A stretch of 24,243 bases of DNA from a virus: positions 1-24,243 of IMG/VR virus record IMGVR_UViG_3300025099_000137; one strand, written 5' to 3'. This document shows positions 5,026-19,168 of the stretch, in pieces. The translations under genes and the position numbers were made by a program. Each line of letters begins with the position of its first letter. Position 1 is the first letter of the stretch. A model generated the notes under the pieces. The model made no database searches. It was not told where the DNA came from and saw only the letters and a list, made by a program, of their open reading frames with translations.

Positions 5026-6486
5026 TTAATTTAATACACTAGTGTTAAATGCGGAAGTGTTAAGTACACTACTCGATCCGGAGACCAAGACCACATTTAT
5101 CGATTCTGTTATTGTAGCACTATCTGATAAAGATTTACCAAAAGTATGTGCTAAACTTTCTGAGATAGAAGCACTCTCTGTAAAAATATTTCCAGCGCCA
5201 GAAACAAATACATCAGCTAAACTTATAGTTTCGCTAAAAGATGTTGAGAATGAGTGAGCAAGGCTCTCTGTAATTGTAGGGGTATCTGCAAAACTAGTTG
5301 AAAACGTAAGCACGGGAGCACTGTCACCCACACCCACAATATTTCCTTTGTTTATACCAAAGTCTGTTTGCAAATCATCAGAAGCACTAGCAGTATCATC
5401 TAATGCATAACTATCTGAAAAAGCCCGTACAAACGTAGCTACACGACTAAATGATTCGGACATGACCACAGATTCAGCAACTTGTACGCTAACCGCACCG
5501 CCCATACCACTGTGGTTTGTACAATAATAATGTAAAGACGCTGGTGTAGATCCAGTTACTTGTATCTCTACATAAGCACCAGAAGCCCCAGGTGTACCAC
5601 TTACAGTCACATTAGTTGTGTATGCAGAGCCTCCACCATGTGAACCATTTGCTGTTTCTGAAAATCTAAATGGGTGTCCGCTAACACTAGAATCTGATAA
5701 ATCAAACTTATATGTTTTACCTACATTTAACGTCAGTGCTGGGCTATTAACGCCATCAATGTGGTACTTATTACCTGATCCATATGAGTTTGTAGCAGAA
5801 GCAACGGTTACTGTATAAATAACTGTACCGCTTTCTGGTATTGCTTTACCTACTCCCAACACATTAGACTCAGAGATAGTCGCTGTTTCAGAGTGCGGTA
5901 AACTAATATCTAAAGCAGGTGCATCAGAGACCGATAAGGTATCACTTTTAGCGGGGTCTATACTCAATACTTCTACATCGCTAAAGGATAAAGTATCGCT
6001 TTTTGTTGGTTCTATACTTAATGCAGGAGCATCAGAAAGTGTACTACTATCATCAAATGCTGTACTAAAAGCAATTGCAGGTGCATCAGAAAGTGTTGGT
6101 GTATCACTAAATGCCCTAACAAAAGCTACTACTTTACTAAGAGATTCAGCAATACTAACCGTTTCAGATTTACTGCTAGCAAATGCTGAAGCTAGTTCTT
6201 CTGCTATAGAAACAGTTTCTGTCTTTGTTGTTTCAAATAAAACTGCTGGTGCGTCGGTTAAACCAAAACTTTCAGCATTTGGATGCCCAGAAAGGAAGTA
6301 AAGGTTTTTACTATCGGCATCTAATAATACATTTACAGCCGATAAATCTACGTACTGTAATGACGTTTGTAAATTTGTAAACGTAACAAGAGATCTAAGG
6401 TTTTGAAAAACAGAAACGGGTTGAATCGAATCTGTGTCAACAGTAACCTTTAGGTTGACATAATCAACTGTAAACTTGATGGCCAT
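5026..6486 (-). CDS. 18-residue-repeat tail protein with inserted cupredoxin-like domain
   Basis: A 486-residue tail protein in four parts. Residues 1-80 form an N-terminal domain, probably for attachment. Residues 88-215 are Ser/Thr/Asp-rich tandem units. Four strict 18-residue units (for example FSDTPTLSDAPAIAFSTA) start at 126, 144, 162 and 180. Residues 222-332 are a cupredoxin-like domain (see separate entry). Residues 399-470 are four more exact 18-residue units starting at 399, 417, 435 and 453. The strict period suggests a regular beta-solenoid or filament. The ATG overlaps the stop of the upstream gene by one base (TAATG) and has no clear ribosome site, so translation is probably coupled. 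A tail or fibre role is inferred from the neighbours and from the repeats. Confidence 0.85.
   Translation of the reverse strand: MAIKFTVDYVNLKVTVDTDSIQPVSVFQNLRSLVTFTNLQTSLQYVDLSAVNVLLDADSKNLYFLSGHPNAESFGLTDAPAVLFETTKTETVSIAEELASAFASSKSETVSIAESLSKVVAFVRAFSDTPTLSDAPAIAFSTAFDDSSTLSDAPALSIEPTKSDTLSFSDVEVLSIDPAKSDTLSVSDAPALDISLPHSETATISESNVLGVGKAIPESGTVIYTVTVASATNSYGSGNKYHIDGVNSPALTLNVGKTYKFDLSDSSVSGHPFRFSETANGSHGGGSAYTTNVTVSGTPGASGAYVEIQVTGSTPASLHYYCTNHSGMGGAVSVQVAESVVMSESFSRVATFVRAFSDSYALDDTASASDDLQTDFGINKGNIVGVGDSAPVLTFSTSFADTPTITESLAHSFSTSFSETISLADVFVSGAGNIFTESASISESLAHTFGKSLSDSATITESINVVLVSGSSSVLNTSAFNTSVLN
5077..5292 (-). repeat. 18-residue (54-bp period) protein repeats, block 2
   Basis: This block encodes residues 399-470, with four units starting at 399, 417, 435 and 453 (for example FADTPTITESLAHSFSTS). 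They are the same repeat type as block 1, resumed after the cupredoxin-like insertion and a spacer. Confidence 0.8.
5491..5823 (-). other. Cupredoxin-like domain with intact type-1 copper ligands
   Basis: This segment encodes residues 222-332 of the 486-residue tail protein. It has the landmarks KYHIDGV, LTLNVGKTYKFDLSD, SGHPFRFSE, GTPGASGAYVEIQV and LHYYCTNHSGMGG. His271 (in GHPF) and Cys322, His325 and Met328 (in CTNHSGM) match the His/Cys/His/Met type-1 copper set, and the C-x2-H-x2-M spacing is that of amicyanin. The domain is therefore predicted to have a plastocyanin-like beta-sandwich fold. I have the impression that similar YYC-x2-H-x2-M domains occur in other marine phage and bacterial proteins. 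Whether it binds copper, or uses the fold only structurally, is not known from sequence. Confidence 0.75.
5842..6225 (-). repeat. 18-residue (54-bp period) protein repeats, block 1
   Basis: This block encodes residues 88-215 of the 486-residue tail protein. The units share the pattern (F/K)SDTxTLSDAPAL. Unit starts at residues 126, 144, 162, 180 and 198 are exactly 18 apart; the units from 88 to 126 are 18 and 20 long. The DNA copies have diverged, so selection acts on the protein period rather than on the bases. Confidence 0.8.
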
Positions 6487-6891: not shown

Positions 6892-9800
6892 TTAAATGGA
6901 AAATGGATTATAGTCATCTGCTTTTGCATTACCGCGCCACAAGTCTTCTACTTTTTCTGCAGTTGGGCCTAATCCAGCTACAAACCAAGAGTTTCCATAT
7001 TTATCAGCTTCTAACATTGGAACTACTAAACCAAAAGCCCCAAACACACCACTTCGATCTAGTATTTCTAAAAAATATTGTCCCCAAGGCATGTTATCAG
7101 AACGGAATACAGACGCGTCTCCACCCCTGCCTAAGTATTTAATAAACTCTCTTATTTCTAAACCTAAAGCTGTTAATGGCAACAAAGTTACTGCACCCAA
7201 AACTAAAGGAACTGCTGCGCCAGGAAGAGACCCGTTTTGTGCAAACCGATTTTTAGTCTCTCTTATAGCACCACCAATGATGTTTTTGCCATATGCATAA
7301 AAGAAAGATTTAAGCTGCCAAATTAAAGCTGTGTAGGGATTTGAAGCCCAAACGGGTCTTTCAGCCGCACTTGGTCTAACAATAGATTCTTCTACAAACC
7401 TACCAATAGCTGCTTTTATTTTAGCGCCTTCTGGACCAGAAAAATCTCGTTTGTTTTCTGATTTACTCCACGCTTCTACTTCTGCTCGCGTAAGATCTAA
7501 TTCTTTTAAGTATCTATTACTGTTTGCATCATTAGTTTTAGCCAAATTAATTAAAAATTGTTCGCCCATACCAGCAGCAAATATTCTTGTAAATTTAGTA
7601 AAGAAATCTAAAGCAGTTATCTTAAAAAACTTGTTTGCTAAATATTTAGTTTCTTTTGTCATGAAACCTAATTCAGCAGCATTAATATACATAGTCTCTA
7701 ACGAGTCATGTGTAATAACCCCTAAATCTTTTGCAAATTGTTCTGCAGCTTCTCGGTTTTTAAGATAATACTTTACTTGATCCATTGTTTGACCAAAGTT
7801 GTTCATGCCTTTACTACGTAAAGTGGGCCCTGCTAAATCTGGTAAGGATGCTAAAGTAGTAAAAGTTAAAAGTGTAACCATGTTAGTCAAAAGACCCCAA
7901 CTGTTTACCTGTCTAGCCCAACCTGACATGCCGAGTCCAACTCGTCCAAGCATAGCTTCCATCGCTCGACGGGCGCCTCGCCTATCATTAACATCCTCTA
8001 TTCTAGAAAGAAGAACTTCTGTGGCTTTCCAACCAGTTAAATCCTTAGTAAGACTTGGGCCTTCATCAAACGCAGCTAGTTTAGAAGATTCAGAATCAAT
8101 AGGACCTACAATTATATTTGCTGCATCTTCCCCCAATTGATCTTTAATATTGAACCAGTCTTGTTCTGTTGCGGTTACTCTAGCTCGTTTATCATATTCA
8201 ACTCTTTTTACTGTATCTTCTATATAAGCTTTAAGGCTATAAGCCGCTGGATTAAGAAGTTCTATGTCTTTTGATCCTTCGGGATTTATTTCCCCTTGTT
8301 CATTAAGGCCCCGCCTTGCCGCTTCAGTTGGTATCTTTTTAAAATATTTAACCCTTGCTTGGTTCATACCAAGAGATAAAGTAGAAATGCCATTGTCAGT
8401 TTTTGCAACTGCTTCATTGTCTTCGTCTGTTTCTAGCCAAGACTCAACATAAGACTCCCAATTTTTGTAAGTGGTGCCTTGCCCATCAGTTATGTTTTGT
8501 ACATCTGGATTATATTTTCGTAAGAGCTTTGCCATTATTGCTCTTTTTTCAGGGCTTTGTCGCAGCTCTGCTAAACTCCATTTTCTTGGGAAGAAGTCTG
8601 GAAGTTTTAAAACACCTTCTAAATTACCATCAATATAAGTATCATAAAACTCGCTTAAAAACTCTCTCATTTTTTGTGCTTCTGGACTAAGTTCAGCTGT
8701 AGGTGTACTAGCTTCCGCTTCTTCTGCAATTCTAGTTAAAGCTTCCATGTTAGGCTCGCCATTTTTCTTCTTTTCTACCAAACTATAAATATCATTTAGT
8801 TTTTGATTTATAACTAAAATACGAACATTTATATATCCACTTTTATCTTCGCTTTGTGATTCCGAATACATAATTGCTGCAAGAGCGGGGCTTATCTCTT
8901 TTAAATAACCATGCGCAGTTTTAAACACATAATTTAAAGACACATGTTTTTTATCTTTTGGTAACAAGGGTAGAGGGGCCCTTAACAATGCTTCTACCTG
9001 ACGTTTTATAAAGAATAACGCTTGTTTAGATACGCCTTTTGGAGTATCTACGGTTTGTTCCATTACATCTAAAACTCTATAAACTTCTGCTTTTTGCGCT
9101 CTGGTAAAACTATTAAAAGTGGCATTTCCTGGTGGAGAAATGTTAGCGATTTTTATAACATCATCCATGTAACTTGCAAAATCGGAATCTAAAGTAAATC
9201 TACCTTTTGCTTGCTTGTTAACTACATCAAAGAAATCTTTTAGCCTTTGCACAATACGTTTAAAGTAAGACTGTACAAAGTTAGTGGCTTTTTGATCTGG
9301 ATCAAATGCATACACTGCATATTGATCTGCATACCATTCTTCAAAACCAAATTTACCATCATATTTTGTACTGCCTTGTTCTTGCAGCGCTTTTCTTGCT
9401 TTAGCAAAAGCCTTATCTAATTTTTGTCTTACTGAAGGAATTGCTAAAGAACGTTCTAATTCTTGCTTGTACACGCCGTGACCTATTTCATGCCCCAACG
9501 CCCTAAGCATAAATGCAAACTGTTCGTTTGTTGGTTTTTGCTGCAAGTTTAAAATGATGACATCCCCTTGCGCACCAAACTGTACTATCCGAGCAGGTTT
9601 TCCTGTTTTACGCATATCCTCTTTTATGTTCTCTACAATCCATTTAGAACTACGGCTAACGCCATTATCATCTACATAAACATTATTAAACTCACTGCCA
9701 AGAACAATTTCATCGTCAAGCGAAATAATACGTAAAGTTCGACCATATTTTAGTTTGCTATTAATAGCGTTTAAAAGAATATCAACTATAGAGACCCCTT

Positions 9801-12800
9801 TAGCCCCAGCAACAGGGCCAAACAAGTCTTCTCGTTTAAAGTAATCTTTGACTCTTTGAGTTGCTGAAGTTTTTTTGTTTTCTACACCCTGTTGTTTTTG
9901 AGTACTTAAATATGTTTTTCCTAATTTTTGTGAATTAGCGTTTAAAACATTTATGTGTGCGTCATAACCAAACTCATCTCTTATACCACCCGCTTGCATT
10001 TGGTCTATTTCGTTTGCTTCTACGTCTATTGTTTCATTTAAAGAAGCTGCTTCGCTGTCTGTAAAAATACCCTCTTCTCGAGCAATATCTTGTAGGTATT
10101 CTTGGAATTGTTTTAAATATTCGCGTTCTGATAAAAAAACTTTTTTTGTAGGCCCTACAAAATAATAAAAAGGTTTTTTAATAGTTTTTGTTTCCCCTTT
10201 TTTAGTCGTTCCTTTTTTTTCTAAAGGTACTACATCTTGAAAACCTCTTGCTTTCTTGAACTCTTTTTCAAAATCAGCTCTTGTGTATCCTTCATACCGA
10301 CTAAAAGGTTTTTCTCGGTTAAGGTTTGACTCGTCAGCTATAAAAACTCTTTCTTGGCGGCGGACTTTCATATCAGCCCCCGTAACAATATTTTGCACTG
10401 TGTTTGCGCCTGAAGTTGTTCGTTCTGTTTTAAAAATAGGCTCCCCCGCGTTATTTAGTTTTGGAATAGGGTTACCTTTATTATCTACTTTGTTTTTTCC
10501 ATCTTTATTTTTTTCGTAAACTGGAACCTGTTGTTCTAGTGTGTTTCCACTACCTATATCAAAAGCCACCTGTTCTGATGTCCCTTCTAAGCCCGTTAAA
10601 GAGCCTACAATTTGTTTTACGTCAGAATTAATAATGGTGTTCAGTGCCTTATTACTAACACGGGCTTTTTTTATTGGCACTCCAACCTCAACAGAACCCG
10701 CTTTGTTTATAACAAACTTATCACCTTGTTTTTTAAAACTGCTTATTTTAACTGCATTTACTTCTGCGTCAGTCATGCTAGCAACTCTTTTGCCTTTGTA
10801 CTCTATTGGTTGATTTAATTGTTCGGCTATTCCAATTAAATCTTTAAAACCCTGTCTGTTCCTTTCTGCAGGAGATAAAGAAGAAGACACTTCGCTGCTG
10901 TCAGCTGCATATACTGCGTAGTTAATAAGAGTGATAATATCTACAGATTCTCCGTTTATAGTAAAAGCCCGTGCTTCTGGAGAACTGTTTACTTCTTCCC
11001 TTTGTTGTCTATAAGATGCTTCTTTAGCTCTTTGTACTGCTTTGTCAAAATCAGCTTGTTCTTGGCTTAAATCTGCAATAATAGAATAAGCGAATTCTCC
11101 TTTTATTGGTTTACCTTCTTTATCTACAGCTGGAACTTTTGATAATATAAAATTAGATTTGTCATCCCTGTTTTTTAATCTAGTAAACTCGTTTAGTTTA
11201 CCTTTAGGTACATCATCTATTCTTTGTACTCCGTTCTCGTACGACGTCCAAAAAGACCTTTCTCTGTCATCGTCTAAAGAATTTAAAAAGTTAGTTTTTT
11301 CTTCTGGAGAAGGTTTTTGTTTATCCCCAATAGTTTTGTTTTTGTAACTAGAAGGTGTTAAAGCAGGTTCGGCTAATACTTGTGTATTGACTTCTGGGCT
11401 AACTGTTAAGTTACCACCTTCAAACGCATCAGCTAAAGTTCTACCAAAATTTGTCTCTGTTTCATCCCCAGCTGTTTCATAAGTAGGATCATCGTCTTCT
11501 ACTACGTCTTTAACAGTTGCTTTTTCTGGGCCTTTTGGTTTTATACGAGCTTGCTTTTCTTTTAAAGCATCTTCTTTGGTCATTTCGTCAATCGTAACTT
11601 CGCCATCATCAAACTCTTGTTGGTAAAGATCATAAGCATTTTTTGATGCAACGGCTTTACCTGCTTTGTTTGTAGATTGAGTAAAGACATGATTATTGTC
11701 TTTGTCTTTTACTACTATAGCTAAATCATGAGAAGAATCTTGGGGTTGGCTAAACTGTAGTATTTGTTGTTTTGTTTCGTTTGTAAGCCCATTTTCTTCA
11801 ATAAATTGAATAAGGTCTTTGTCTGTTGCTTTTACAATTGCAGCAGCTCCATCTTTTTCTACAACTTGGAGATCCGGACCTTTAGCATCCGGTCTATACT
11901 GATTTACTATAAAAGCTTCTGCTTGGTCTGCAGTTGTGTCTTCTAAAATAACTGCGTTTCTAGCTGAATTAGGGGCTACAAGATCATTTAATTGTGCAAG
12001 TATATCCTCGTCAGGTTCTACTTGAGTTCGGCTAGCATTTATTGTTTCGGCATCTTCCTGGCTCATTGTATCAGCTTGTACTTCTCTACCAGTAGCTAGT
12101 AAATTGTAGGCTTTAGATATAACACTTGCAGGAGCTGCTCTAGCACCACCGGCAAACCCCCCAACAAAAGCTGATTCCATTGCACGCATTTTTGCTTCTT
12201 GTTCTGAATAATCAGGATCGATTGCAAATCTTTGTGCAATTAACGCGCCCTCTTGTAAAGTTTCAGTTGCACTTTCTACTACAAAACTTTGCCCAGATTT
12301 TATAGCTACAGCTTTAGCAAGCTCTTTCATAAATGTACCTGCAGCCATATCTCCAGCAACTGCATCTTTTAAAGCCATTTTTGTCATGCCCCTAAAGAAA
12401 AGACCTTCAGATAAGGTACCAAGTAGGGCTTGTGGAATACCTAATAGTGCAGCCATCTCTGCTTCTTCTTTTGTTAGCTCAAAGCCAGCATCATCAAATT
12501 CTTTCAAGGCTTGTGACGAACCTACTACGTACTCTTGGCCAAATGCGCCTACGCCTATTCCAACTTTAGTAGCTGTTGCACTTGTATAAGTTTTAGCAGC
12601 CCTTGCTGCGTCGTATCCATTTTCAAGAAATTCTGCTTCTGCAACGGTTAATTTAATATTGTTGTCTTTTTTCTTAACAATATTATTAAATTTCTTTTTT
12701 AAAAAAGCTCGACTAACTCCAGTTAAAGACCCTTTTCCAAGGTTAGCTACGATACCGCCCGTGCCTGCAGATACAACAGACGTAACTACCATAGGGGTAA

Positions 12801-13683
12801 AAGAACCTACTCCTTTTAATACCTGTTCTACAAAACCATCAAACGTAGGCGCATCATAAAATTCTTGAAAAGCTCCCATTTGACTAAGTATTTCTGAAGC
12901 GCTGTCATCTAAAATTTTAGCTTTACCTAATTTAACACGTGCTGCCTCATCATTACCGGTTAATAAATTTGCAATAGCACCAAAAGTGTATACGTCAGAC
13001 TCAAACTGTTTGCCACCGGCTTTAACAGCTTCTGTAAAAGTTTCGCCACGGCTTAATTTTCCTTGCGCATCACCCAGGCCTTCAATTTTTTCTCCGGCAA
13101 AAAGACCTTTAACAGCGTCGGTTTCTCTACTAGCTGAAGCAAAAAGACCCGCTATACTAATAGGTTGTGGTGTTGAAGCCGGAGCTACTGTTGGGTCTGC
13201 TTGAGTGGTTGGTGGTTCTATAGGGTCTGGTTGGTTTGTTTGAAGCTGTTGCAAAGCCGCTTGAAAATTTTGTACTCGCACAGGTGTTTGATCATTCCAA
13301 TCAGAATTTGCAGCTTCAATTGCAGCCCCACTAAAATTACCCTGTTGCATTAAGCCCCAAGTACCGTCGTGTTCTTTGTACCAGTTAGTTCCTAGTTGAA
13401 AGTTTACTTCCCCAAGAGCATCAACAAAGTTACTATCACCACCTTGACCTAGCTGGTCTGCTTGTGCTTTTGCAGCTGTATAAGCTTTGGTGGAGTCTTG
13501 ATCTAACCATTGACTAATAAGTTTGTCATCTATAATGTCGCCTTCTTTATATAGACCAAGCTCTTCATCTGTTAACCTATGTCCAACTCCAGCTGTTAAT
13601 ACACCTAAACTGTCTCGGTAGACGTCATTTCTATAGCCTTCGTTGGTTTTTAAATTGTTAAGGAAATTAGCAGAAACTGACAC
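6892..13683 (-). CDS. Giant internal virion/ejection protein with lysozyme and metallopeptidase domains
   Basis: A 2263-residue protein, over a quarter of the window, at the place of T7 gene 16 (whose product is about 1318 aa). Residues 5-147 are a T4-type lysozyme domain with E15, D24 and T30 at the T4 spacing (E11/D20/T26). A Pro/Thr linker (about 148-175) and a Gly-rich, mildly hydrophobic stretch (about 290-316) follow. Residues 1398-1402 read HEIGH, with E1448/E1449 in FEEWYAD downstream, a zinc metallopeptidase pattern. Hydrophobic segments lie near 1925-1955 and 2155-2184. The region around VRPSAAERPVWASNPY resembles modules I associate with large multidomain phage proteins. The start is GTG at 13681-13683, 7 bp after the previous stop, with GGTAGG nearby. 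It probably enters or crosses the envelope at DNA ejection and cuts peptidoglycan. That role is inferred. Confidence 0.85.
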   Translation of the reverse strand: MSVSANFLNNLKTNEGYRNDVYRDSLGVLTAGVGHRLTDEELGLYKEGDIIDDKLISQWLDQDSTKAYTAAKAQADQLGQGGDSNFVDALGEVNFQLGTNWYKEHDGTWGLMQQGNFSGAAIEAANSDWNDQTPVRVQNFQAALQQLQTNQPDPIEPPTTQADPTVAPASTPQPISIAGLFASASRETDAVKGLFAGEKIEGLGDAQGKLSRGETFTEAVKAGGKQFESDVYTFGAIANLLTGNDEAARVKLGKAKILDDSASEILSQMGAFQEFYDAPTFDGFVEQVLKGVGSFTPMVVTSVVSAGTGGIVANLGKGSLTGVSRAFLKKKFNNIVKKKDNNIKLTVAEAEFLENGYDAARAAKTYTSATATKVGIGVGAFGQEYVVGSSQALKEFDDAGFELTKEEAEMAALLGIPQALLGTLSEGLFFRGMTKMALKDAVAGDMAAGTFMKELAKAVAIKSGQSFVVESATETLQEGALIAQRFAIDPDYSEQEAKMRAMESAFVGGFAGGARAAPASVISKAYNLLATGREVQADTMSQEDAETINASRTQVEPDEDILAQLNDLVAPNSARNAVILEDTTADQAEAFIVNQYRPDAKGPDLQVVEKDGAAAIVKATDKDLIQFIEENGLTNETKQQILQFSQPQDSSHDLAIVVKDKDNNHVFTQSTNKAGKAVASKNAYDLYQQEFDDGEVTIDEMTKEDALKEKQARIKPKGPEKATVKDVVEDDDPTYETAGDETETNFGRTLADAFEGGNLTVSPEVNTQVLAEPALTPSSYKNKTIGDKQKPSPEEKTNFLNSLDDDRERSFWTSYENGVQRIDDVPKGKLNEFTRLKNRDDKSNFILSKVPAVDKEGKPIKGEFAYSIIADLSQEQADFDKAVQRAKEASYRQQREEVNSSPEARAFTINGESVDIITLINYAVYAADSSEVSSSLSPAERNRQGFKDLIGIAEQLNQPIEYKGKRVASMTDAEVNAVKISSFKKQGDKFVINKAGSVEVGVPIKKARVSNKALNTIINSDVKQIVGSLTGLEGTSEQVAFDIGSGNTLEQQVPVYEKNKDGKNKVDNKGNPIPKLNNAGEPIFKTERTTSGANTVQNIVTGADMKVRRQERVFIADESNLNREKPFSRYEGYTRADFEKEFKKARGFQDVVPLEKKGTTKKGETKTIKKPFYYFVGPTKKVFLSEREYLKQFQEYLQDIAREEGIFTDSEAASLNETIDVEANEIDQMQAGGIRDEFGYDAHINVLNANSQKLGKTYLSTQKQQGVENKKTSATQRVKDYFKREDLFGPVAGAKGVSIVDILLNAINSKLKYGRTLRIISLDDEIVLGSEFNNVYVDDNGVSRSSKWIVENIKEDMRKTGKPARIVQFGAQGDVIILNLQQKPTNEQFAFMLRALGHEIGHGVYKQELERSLAIPSVRQKLDKAFAKARKALQEQGSTKYDGKFGFEEWYADQYAVYAFDPDQKATNFVQSYFKRIVQRLKDFFDVVNKQAKGRFTLDSDFASYMDDVIKIANISPPGNATFNSFTRAQKAEVYRVLDVMEQTVDTPKGVSKQALFFIKRQVEALLRAPLPLLPKDKKHVSLNYVFKTAHGYLKEISPALAAIMYSESQSEDKSGYINVRILVINQKLNDIYSLVEKKKNGEPNMEALTRIAEEAEASTPTAELSPEAQKMREFLSEFYDTYIDGNLEGVLKLPDFFPRKWSLAELRQSPEKRAIMAKLLRKYNPDVQNITDGQGTTYKNWESYVESWLETDEDNEAVAKTDNGISTLSLGMNQARVKYFKKIPTEAARRGLNEQGEINPEGSKDIELLNPAAYSLKAYIEDTVKRVEYDKRARVTATEQDWFNIKDQLGEDAANIIVGPIDSESSKLAAFDEGPSLTKDLTGWKATEVLLSRIEDVNDRRGARRAMEAMLGRVGLGMSGWARQVNSWGLLTNMVTLLTFTTLASLPDLAGPTLRSKGMNNFGQTMDQVKYYLKNREAAEQFAKDLGVITHDSLETMYINAAELGFMTKETKYLANKFFKITALDFFTKFTRIFAAGMGEQFLINLAKTNDANSNRYLKELDLTRAEVEAWSKSENKRDFSGPEGAKIKAAIGRFVEESIVRPSAAERPVWASNPYTALIWQLKSFFYAYGKNIIGGAIRETKNRFAQNGSLPGAAVPLVLGAVTLLPLTALGLEIREFIKYLGRGGDASVFRSDNMPWGQYFLEILDRSGVFGAFGLVVPMLEADKYGNSWFVAGLGPTAEKVEDLWRGNAKADDYNPFSI
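9304..9666 (-). other. HEIGH zinc metallopeptidase-like domain
   Basis: This segment encodes about residues 1340-1460. The HExxH motif is H1398, E1399, H1402 (LGHEIGHGVY), within a helix preceded by a strand (DVIILNLQQ). A candidate third zinc ligand is E1448 or E1449 in GFEEWYADQYAVY, 46-47 residues on, as in gluzincin-type peptidases. The motif and the downstream Glu are both intact. The target could be the phage's own ejection proteins or a host protein; the sequence does not say. Confidence 0.7.
13243..13671 (-). other. T4-type (GH24-like) lysozyme domain
   Basis: This segment encodes residues 5-147 of the 2263-residue protein. E15, D24 and T30 are spaced +9 and +15, as E11, D20 and T26 are in T4 lysozyme, and GVGH follows the Thr as GIGH does in T4. 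It further contains DALGEVNFQLG and a Trp-rich end. All catalytic residues are present, so activity on peptidoglycan is expected. At the N-terminus of an ejection protein it most likely makes a local hole at infection rather than lysing the host at the end. Confidence 0.85.
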
Positions 13684-17338: not shown

Positions 17339-17782
17339 TTATAACTCTTTTCTATATGTTTGTGTTACCAAATTAAAATCATGCAGGGGTGCTATTTTTT
17401 CCCACCCTTTTCTATTACTTTCAAATTCAATAGCTACTGCTTTCATATCTTCCGCTATTTTTTCTAAAAACTTAAACATAGCTTTTACATAATTATACTC
17501 TGGTTTCTGGTAACTTGCCCAGACAAACAGTGTGTCCTCGCCACTAATACTTCTTAGCGTATTAACGATTATAAACCCAATATATGTATCTTCTTCATAC
17601 AACATGTACAAAGTAGACAGCTCTTCTTGTAAAGATAAATAGACGTCGGGTGTTATCCAGTCAGCTTGACACTTTTTTCTAACTTGATCTAAATCTGGTT
17701 GTATTTTTTCAAAAGCACAACGTACCTCAGAAAGAGGAATTGTCTCAATTGAAAGCCCATCAATAGTCAATCTCTGAACCAT
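17339..17782 (-). CDS. GNAT-like (N-acetyltransferase fold) virion-region protein
   Basis: A 147-residue protein whose layout fits a GNAT fold: an acidic helix region, the strand pair LYMLYEEDTYIGFIIVNTL, the strand LFVWASYQKPEYN, a helix with FKFLEKIAEDMKAVAIEFES, and the terminal NRKGWEKIAPLHDFNLVTQTYRKEL (the RxGWE...GF...YxKxL pattern of GNAT C-termini). The canonical acetyl-CoA loop (Q/RxxGxG/A) is not clear, so it may be catalytically inactive. T7 gp13, in a similar gene position, has been annotated by some as GNAT-like, and this gene likewise precedes the ejection-protein genes. It overlaps the preceding gene by 23 bp and starts at ATG 17780-17782 with an AAGG ribosome site. Role unknown; a virion-assembly role is possible. 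Confidence 0.6.
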   Translation of the reverse strand: MVQRLTIDGLSIETIPLSEVRCAFEKIQPDLDQVRKKCQADWITPDVYLSLQEELSTLYMLYEEDTYIGFIIVNTLRSISGEDTLFVWASYQKPEYNYVKAMFKFLEKIAEDMKAVAIEFESNRKGWEKIAPLHDFNLVTQTYRKEL

Positions 17783-18443
17783 ACTTCTTATACCTTTTAC
17801 GTGGGCTTAAACCGGCGCCTCTGTATTTAACAGTTCTTTTAACGCCTAAATCTCCGCCCCTTGCTTTTAGTTCAGCTTGTACAATTTCTTGATTAAACAA
17901 TCCTAAATAATCAGCTGCTGCTGCTGGATCAGTCCAATCTTTTGCAGGAATACGCATAAGCCTATATAAAGTGCCATACACAATTCCGTCTCTGTAACTG
18001 TTTGAAAAAGTGGTGTCTATATTACTTGTAGTCCTACTCGGTTTTAAAGCAACAGATAATTGAATGCCGTTGGTAACGGCGCTACCAGGAACCGGTATTA
18101 CCCAAAACGTACTTGGGTTTTTTTGTAAATAAACTTGTGGTACTGAAGTTTTGTTTCTCCAATCAGAATAGTTTAACTCTAAACTTCTAGGGCTAATTGG
18201 GTCTAAATCATCGCCATCATATGTCATCCATAAAATTGCATGTACATCTGTGCCGCTTGGTTGGTCGAACTCATATTCATATACGCCACTAATACTTGTA
18301 ATTGGATCTAAGTCATATACGTAAGCTTTAGATCTTTCTGCAAATTCTATACAAGCGGAGCGCAAAGTAGATTCAATTAAAGAATCTGGGCAATTGGGTA
18401 CGTATGGAAGTATGTCTTTTACTAAAGAATCAAATGATGCCAT
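17760..18443 (-). CDS. Head-tail connector/adaptor-like protein
   Basis: A 227-residue protein with the features of phage neck adaptors: an N-terminal helix pair (MASFDSLVKDILPYVPNCPDSLIESTLRSACIEFAERS, written here in part), a beta-rich centre with WMTYDGDDLDP and FWVIPVPG, the helix region DGIVYGTLYRLMRIPAKDW, and a very basic C-terminus (GAGLSPRKRYKKYG). The IESTLRSACIEFAERS helix is typical of tail-tubular/adaptor proteins that sit under the portal. It overlaps its upstream neighbour by one base (TAATG) and its downstream neighbour by 23 bp. The adaptor role is inferred from position and pattern; it could be the counterpart of T7 gp11 or of a second neck ring. Confidence 0.65.
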   Translation of the reverse strand: MASFDSLVKDILPYVPNCPDSLIESTLRSACIEFAERSKAYVYDLDPITSISGVYEYEFDQPSGTDVHAILWMTYDGDDLDPISPRSLELNYSDWRNKTSVPQVYLQKNPSTFWVIPVPGSAVTNGIQLSVALKPSRTTSNIDTTFSNSYRDGIVYGTLYRLMRIPAKDWTDPAAAADYLGLFNQEIVQAELKARGGDLGVKRTVKYRGAGLSPRKRYKKYGSEIDY

Positions 18444-19168
18444 TATTGAACTCCAGGAGGAGGCGGTGGGGGCGCTGTTCTCATGCCCGGTTTATCAGAA
18501 TTAGGATCAAGCAATACTTTTGATTGTCCCCCTCCTGAAACACTCGCCATAAATAATTGATAATGAGATCCAGCCCTTTGTGCGTTACCTGCAAATTCTG
18601 CGTCTTTCATATAACACCTATACAACACATAGTCTACAAGGGCGTTACCATAAACATCATCTATATAAATAGTACTACTTGTAGAACTTAAATCTGTAGG
18701 GTTTCTAGCTGTTACTAATTCAACATAAGCGTTTGATCCAGATTTGACACCTGGATATACATAAAACCTTCTTGGATCATCTGGATCATAAATGTAGTGT
18801 TTAATAACAGAGCCATGCGCAGCATCTCCTGTAACAGTGGGATCATGCCAATTGGGTTCTATAGAATTTAAAATATCTTCATCTACTAACCTAATAGCTT
18901 TTTTACCTGTTGCGCTACCACCAGTAGCACTCATATTTCTAACTACTTTTATTAAACACATTGCAACATCTGGAATAGACTGTTCTGTCCCAGTAGCCAA
19001 TTGCACATTTGAATGGTCTGCAGCCGCAGCGGGTTTAAAGTTAACTACCTCTCTTTGTGCATCATTTATGTACCGAAGCAATTCAGCTTCAGTCCATCGA
19101 ACGCCAGTTGTATCTTGCAGGGTGTCCTGGATTCTGGATATTAAATTAGCGCCCGTTAATGTGCCCAT
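18443..19168 (-). CDS. Head-tail adaptor-like protein (DUF6682-type)
   Basis: A 241-residue protein with MGTLTGANLISRIQDTLQD, then TEAELLRYINDAQREVVNFKP (an N-terminal helical bundle common to phage neck adaptors), a strand-rich middle with FYVYPGV and VELVTARNP, then the helices YGNALVDYVLYRCYMKDAEF and HYQLFMASV. The tail is unusual, a run of eight prolines before GVQ. I associate this pattern with the DUF6682 phage family. It would form a ring between portal and tail. Both ends overlap neighbours by one base in TAATG junctions, so expression is coupled to its neighbours. The family name is from memory, not a search. Confidence 0.7.
   Translation of the reverse strand: MGTLTGANLISRIQDTLQDTTGVRWTEAELLRYINDAQREVVNFKPAAAADHSNVQLATGTEQSIPDVAMCLIKVVRNMSATGGSATGKKAIRLVDEDILNSIEPNWHDPTVTGDAAHGSVIKHYIYDPDDPRRFYVYPGVKSGSNAYVELVTARNPTDLSSTSSTIYIDDVYGNALVDYVLYRCYMKDAEFAGNAQRAGSHYQLFMASVSGGGQSKVLLDPNSDKPGMRTAPPPPPPGVQ

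Follow-up and report, generated by a model that had tools for sequence, protein, structure and literature searches.

A putative tail fibre protein of 486 residues, encoded in the window (the whole 24,243-nucleotide stretch of DNA that was analysed, from IMG/VR record IMGVR_UViG_3300025099_000137), appears to carry a domain of the cupredoxin superfamily, residues 222-332, with a type-1-like site (His271, Cys322, His325 and Met328), inserted into a repetitive sequence. Our reading of the whole, which we consider likely, is that this domain is an optional cassette of the fibre that would serve, once loaded with copper, as a generic accessory module. A preliminary description of this DNA had proposed the copper-protein fold and its four ligands; beyond it, we found that the domain is optional in orthologues, that it is widespread in marine phages and that ligand-less paralogues exist. 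The novelty lies in the unexpected location of an otherwise familiar fold and site, and in a family that no Pfam or NCBIfam model covers. Such a copper-site domain in phage fibres seems to be undescribed so far: a search of freely accessible journal papers returned none on a cupredoxin in a phage tail.

A repetitive fibre protein with an inserted domain

The gene (positions 5026-6486, minus strand, as are all features given below) was delineated from its open reading frame, its PHROG matches and the autocorrelation of its repeats. An N-terminal array of 18-residue repeats occupies residues 61-216 (5839-6306), where the lag-18 autocorrelation is 1.37, compared with a maximum of -0.15 +/- 0.09 in shuffled sequences. 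It is followed by the cupredoxin-type domain (5491-5823; modelled as residues 217-333), identified by AlphaFold2, Foldseek and profile comparison, and then by a C-terminal part (residues 334-486, 5029-5487) with weaker repeats (0.05 versus -0.11 +/- 0.10 in shuffled sequences) and a conserved end, SDSATITESINVV..LNTSAFNTSVLN. This C-terminal part is also present in the orthologues that lack the cassette. The idea that 18-residue repeats surround the domain is thus well founded on its N-terminal side and holds only weakly on the other. A structure prediction of the full-length protein was confident only over the cupredoxin part, with the repeats below pLDDT 50.

Tail-fibre families of PHROG match residues 129-357 of the protein. 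PHROG 30742, 693, 27200, 677 and 708 include the cupredoxin-type domain itself (best E 7e-31, with PHROG 30742), under annotations such as tail fibre, baseplate or unknown and never as a copper domain. Upstream of the gene are those of a 2263-residue virion-type protein (6892-13683; a phage lysozyme domain at its N-terminus, the remainder without a Pfam match) and of a protein of 124 residues that matches BppU_N weakly, and after it come the gene of a Gp80-like fibre protein and then more fibre-like genes. The protein thus combines similarity to tail families with a position in the tail module, and its assignment as a probable tail fibre is supported by both the PHROG matches and the gene context. 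Judged by the identity of its portal (41%) and capsid (53%) to those of short-tailed KPP25-type phages, the source phage is a marine KPP25-like podovirus. A Glycine-rich protein (1658-2620; PF21722, 64.6 bits) adjoins the fibre genes. Elsewhere in the window, two adjacent genes (17760-18443 and 18443-19168) score 47.8 and 118.7 bits, respectively, against the SU10 adaptor family, and could represent a duplicated adaptor, or an adaptor and a stopper.

Fold and homology of the domain

The AlphaFold2 model, built from an alignment of 48 sequences, is a confident beta-sandwich (pLDDT 95.8, pTM 0.88). When it was compared with the PDB using Foldseek, the top matches were rusticyanin, ascorbate oxidase, CueO, fungal and two-domain laccases and copper nitrite reductase (probability 0.69-1.00, E 4e-3 to 3e-2, TM around 0.5, none reaching 1e-3). 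The nearest solved structures are nearly all cupredoxins; SO1698, at rank 8, is a structure not described as one. In the model, H271 lies before a strand, C322 at the end of a strand, and H325 and M328 in the loop that precedes the last strand. This is the classical placement of the ligands in cupredoxins. The structure prediction that the preliminary description had named as a check therefore supports the proposed fold, and the boundaries and ligands that it gave were confirmed in full at 5823-5491.

Profile-profile comparison with proteins of the plastocyanin/azurin family gave E-values of 8e-6 (global) and 5e-5 (local) in a single comparison, with C, H and M in register and the first His one column off. 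The Pfam model of this family, PF00127, scores 14.2 bits on the domain, below its gathering cut-off of 21.2, and passes that cut-off (27.6 bits) on a bacterial relative, L215, which is 41% identical to P-SCSP2, a phage member of the same domain family. A sequence search of the PDB gave plastocyanin 1b3i at E 0.12. Since the searches of Pfam, NCBIfam and PDB sequences returned only sub-threshold matches, with antibody chains among the top PDB profile matches, sequence alone would not have settled the identity of the domain. As modelled, it is mostly beta and probably has the Greek-key beta-sandwich and the size (around 100-150 residues) of the cupredoxin superfamily, with Foldseek E-values of 4e-3 at best and a TM of around 0.5. 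Taken together, the model, the structural matches, the profile comparison and the bridge provided by L215 make homology to cupredoxins very likely. The family has no model of its own in Pfam or NCBIfam. In BFVD, two stand-alone beta-sandwich proteins of giant viruses (A0A481Z6J5 of Pithovirus LCPAC302 and A0A481YVH3 of Marseillevirus LCMAC201) resemble the domain in predicted structure (TM around 0.7).

The domain shares features with several groups of copper proteins and coincides with none of them. Like amicyanin, pseudoazurin and plastocyanin (PF00127), it has a beta-sandwich with the same placement of the predicted ligands, and its C-x2-H-x2-M loop is also that of amicyanin. However, the first ligand is usually followed by N in PF00127 proteins and is followed by P in the phage domain. 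Moreover, amicyanin is a free periplasmic electron carrier in methylamine oxidation with linked mau genes, whereas the phage domain is a cassette within a repetitive fibre protein encoded among virion genes. The amicyanin-like spacing proposed in the preliminary description thus stands for the loop, but the invariant H-P resembles multicopper oxidases, and the domain is therefore not an amicyanin. In these enzymes the first ligand is likewise followed by Pro, the H-P-x-H motif being a feature of oxidases, and their type-1 domains (CueO, laccase, ascorbate oxidase) are, with rusticyanin, the best matches among solved structures (TM around 0.5). The H-P motif also gave a short, sub-threshold profile match to the copper oxidase 6vox. 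Multicopper oxidases nevertheless have trinuclear H-x-H pairs and several cupredoxin domains, whereas the phage protein has one domain with one predicted copper site. A soluble, phage-borne plastocyanin (an auxiliary gene of the petE type) was ruled out, the domain being embedded in a virion-type protein.

A conserved, predicted metal site that is lost as a unit

The predicted ligands are H271 (5674-5676, within H-P-F-R-F), the thiolate C322 (5521-5523), H325 (5512-5514) and the axial M328 (5503-5505). They are spaced as H-51-C-x2-H-x2-M, which follows the order of type-1 copper proteins, H ... C-x(2-4)-H-x(2-4)-M. In an alignment of 33 diverse relatives, whose identity goes as low as 41%, invariant columns number 10 out of 117, and the four ligands all fall within them (rough hypergeometric P = 3e-5, with columns treated as exchangeable); across 48 relatives that include cellular ones, the four ligands are among eight invariant columns.

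The patterns used in earlier searches for the domain included C and H, and were thus biased towards these residues. We therefore also searched with a query ending before C322, which matched at least 585 places in IMG/VR, from which 80 loci were kept. In this blind viral sample all four ligands were present in 80 of the 81 complete domains, and the exception (L335) had changed two at once, the first His to D and the M to L. The full set was likewise present in 67 of 67 complete domains from IMG/VR and in 50 of 50 taken from genome assemblies. Chance conservation is ruled out by the invariant columns, the hypergeometric P and the blind sample. The preliminary description had suggested aligning phage homologues, and the ligands did not vary freely among them.

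The complete phage records contain 23 domains with the full ligand set and eight related ones without C, H and M. These eight are all in cyanophage virion proteins (L118, L120, L121, L092, L122, L124/L093, L123), among them a structural protein, a baseplate wedge and a protein of 6000 residues. Loss of the predicted site thus affects it as a unit and not residue by residue. The existence of such domains shows that the fold survives without the site, so that there must be a reason for its retention elsewhere.

The composition of the domain is also informative. Exactly one Cys was found in 207 of 213 domains, which speaks against a disulphide; C322 is the sole cysteine of the 486-residue protein, which rules out a disulphide within the chain. 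The only histidines in the domain are H242, H271, H283, H319 and H325, and none form H-x-H. The best reading of the Cys-His-His-Met set in these sequences is a functional metal site. The earlier argument that ligand conservation speaks for metal binding is supported: we consider it highly probable that the domain binds a metal and, with slightly less assurance, we infer from the ligand set that this metal would be copper.

An optional cassette under strong constraint

Orthologous genes with the same neighbours have zero, one or two copies of the domain at a single junction inside the repeats. There is none in L187, L188 and L201 (370 residues) or in L197 and L200 (368 residues), one in the protein of this phage, L003, L011, L013 and others, and two in tandem in L191 and L192 (607 residues). 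The persistence of orthologues without the cassette indicates that it is not essential for assembly. Tandem pairs within one fibre protein were seen in L191/L192, L022, L025, L026, L030 and L273; the two copies of a pair belong to different clades, which suggests either that the doubling is old or that the second copy was acquired.

The domain is the most constrained part of the fibre protein. Its dN/dS is between 0.03 and 0.10 in 13 of 14 pairs (0.21 for L018), with flanks mostly at 0.06-0.35, and its identity is 83-89% where that of the N-terminal part is 48-74%.

Distribution in marine phages and cells

Searches with tblastn detected it in 381 phage records. Almost all are of cyanophages, with some of phages that infect Prochlorococcus, Pelagibacter and Methylophilales; cultured carriers include cyanophage S-TIM5 and pelagiphage HTVC028P. 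The phage proteins concerned are tail fibres, baseplate connectors and 'hypothetical' virion proteins. Assemblies with the domain come from marine SAR11, SAR86, SAR116, Bacteroidota, Verrucomicrobiota and Euryarchaeota. Some of these carriers, such as the SAR11 loci L157 and L168, look like phage-derived fibres. Others have a cellular appearance, among them short lipobox-bearing proteins of SAR86 and, in Flavobacteriaceae and marine archaea, large proteins of surface type. A tree of 213 domains, with many unresolved forks, mixes phage and cellular labels (23 changes versus a minimum of 2), which fits repeated exchange. Three of the SAR86 proteins (L147, L156, L159) are predicted lipoproteins of around 167-183 residues with little beyond the cupredoxin domain, and are probably copper proteins of the cell surface that belong to no named family. 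In marine Euryarchaeota, L153 and L154 have collagen-like G-x-y repeats with the cupredoxin domain at the end.

Possible roles of the domain

We propose that each chain most likely binds a single copper ion while the particle is in seawater or has reached the surface of a host, and that the domain would be displayed on the outside of the virion. The copper-loaded domain could then be a generic accessory module of the fibre in one of two ways. It might help the particle to attach, through some copper-dependent or redox-active feature that the surfaces of many hosts have in common, or contribute to stability, with copper locking an exposed beta-sandwich. The attachment role is a possibility that we hold tentatively. 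A host-specific receptor tip would be expected to diverge rapidly and in step with the host, and the domain does neither; nor would four ligands be expected to persist in a simple spacer. The best fit is a generic role for which the metal is required.

Several other explanations have to be weighed against this one. The cupredoxin could decide which host is bound, as might be expected from its position in a tail-module fibre protein and from its being swapped in and out. Yet specificity tips are usually the most variable part of such proteins and this domain is the most conserved, with relatives in phages of Synechococcus, Prochlorococcus, Pelagibacter and Methylophilales, and we regard this explanation as very improbable. 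The opposite extreme is a pure spacer, a stable Ig-like beta-sandwich without metal whose ligands are historical leftovers, an option already raised in the preliminary description. Beta-sandwich domains are common decorations of phage fibres, and the ligand-less relatives in cyanophage virion proteins agree with such a role. Leftover ligands would nevertheless drift, and those of this family are kept in nearly all of the unbiased sample and lost jointly; furthermore, orthologues without the domain still make a fibre, and selection is strongest precisely on this domain. We thus find a spacer improbable.

It is also conceivable that the Cys-His-His-Met set holds copper or another soft metal as a structural staple, much as a disulphide would, with no role in attachment. 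Such a staple would suit a domain whose single cysteine allows no disulphide, the occurrence of the same module in many different virion and surface proteins, and a conservation that is independent of the host. However, orthologues manage without the module, and a staple alone does not explain its repeated gain and tandem doubling, which makes this explanation rather unlikely. Finally, the domain might exchange electrons with periplasmic or surface proteins of the host, or mimic a host surface cupredoxin. Its relatives among the short predicted lipoproteins of SAR86 and the large surface-type proteins of Flavobacteriaceae and marine archaea would be in line with this, but there is no linked partner gene and no oxidase or trinuclear copper motif, and the hosts of the carriers differ widely in physiology; this role is as improbable as host specificity. 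A copper-loaded accessory module thus remains our preferred reading. Its further extension is doubtful: that virion-borne type-1 copper domains, shared by many dominant marine phages and by surface proteins of plankton, make the particles copper-loaded, and that infection or particle stability depends on this copper. If true, it would be a copper counterpart of the iron 'Trojan horse' idea, and organically bound copper in the sea would include a pool that has gone unrecognised.

The nearest published idea concerns tail fibres that bind iron through H-x-H pairs. Such motifs in T4 gp37 and in alterophage R22Y belong to the Trojan or Ferrojan horse idea (PMC11705849), and share with the predicted site of the present domain a location on a tail fibre, discussed there for attachment or metal cycling. 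They differ in being octahedral iron sites made of paired His in a trimeric fibre, whereas the phage domain has a single-chain Cys-His-His-Met set typical of copper.

If the site is loaded, many common ocean phages (cyanophages and phages of SAR11 and Methylophilales) would carry copper in their tails. Virus attachment would then be linked to trace-metal chemistry, the metal Trojan-horse idea would become testable on a single-chain, mutable site, and hundreds of proteins now called 'tail fibre' or 'hypothetical' would gain a name. The natural presence/absence polymorphism of orthologous fibre genes offers ready pairs for comparison, and the eight cyanophage domains without C, H and M are natural metal-less controls.
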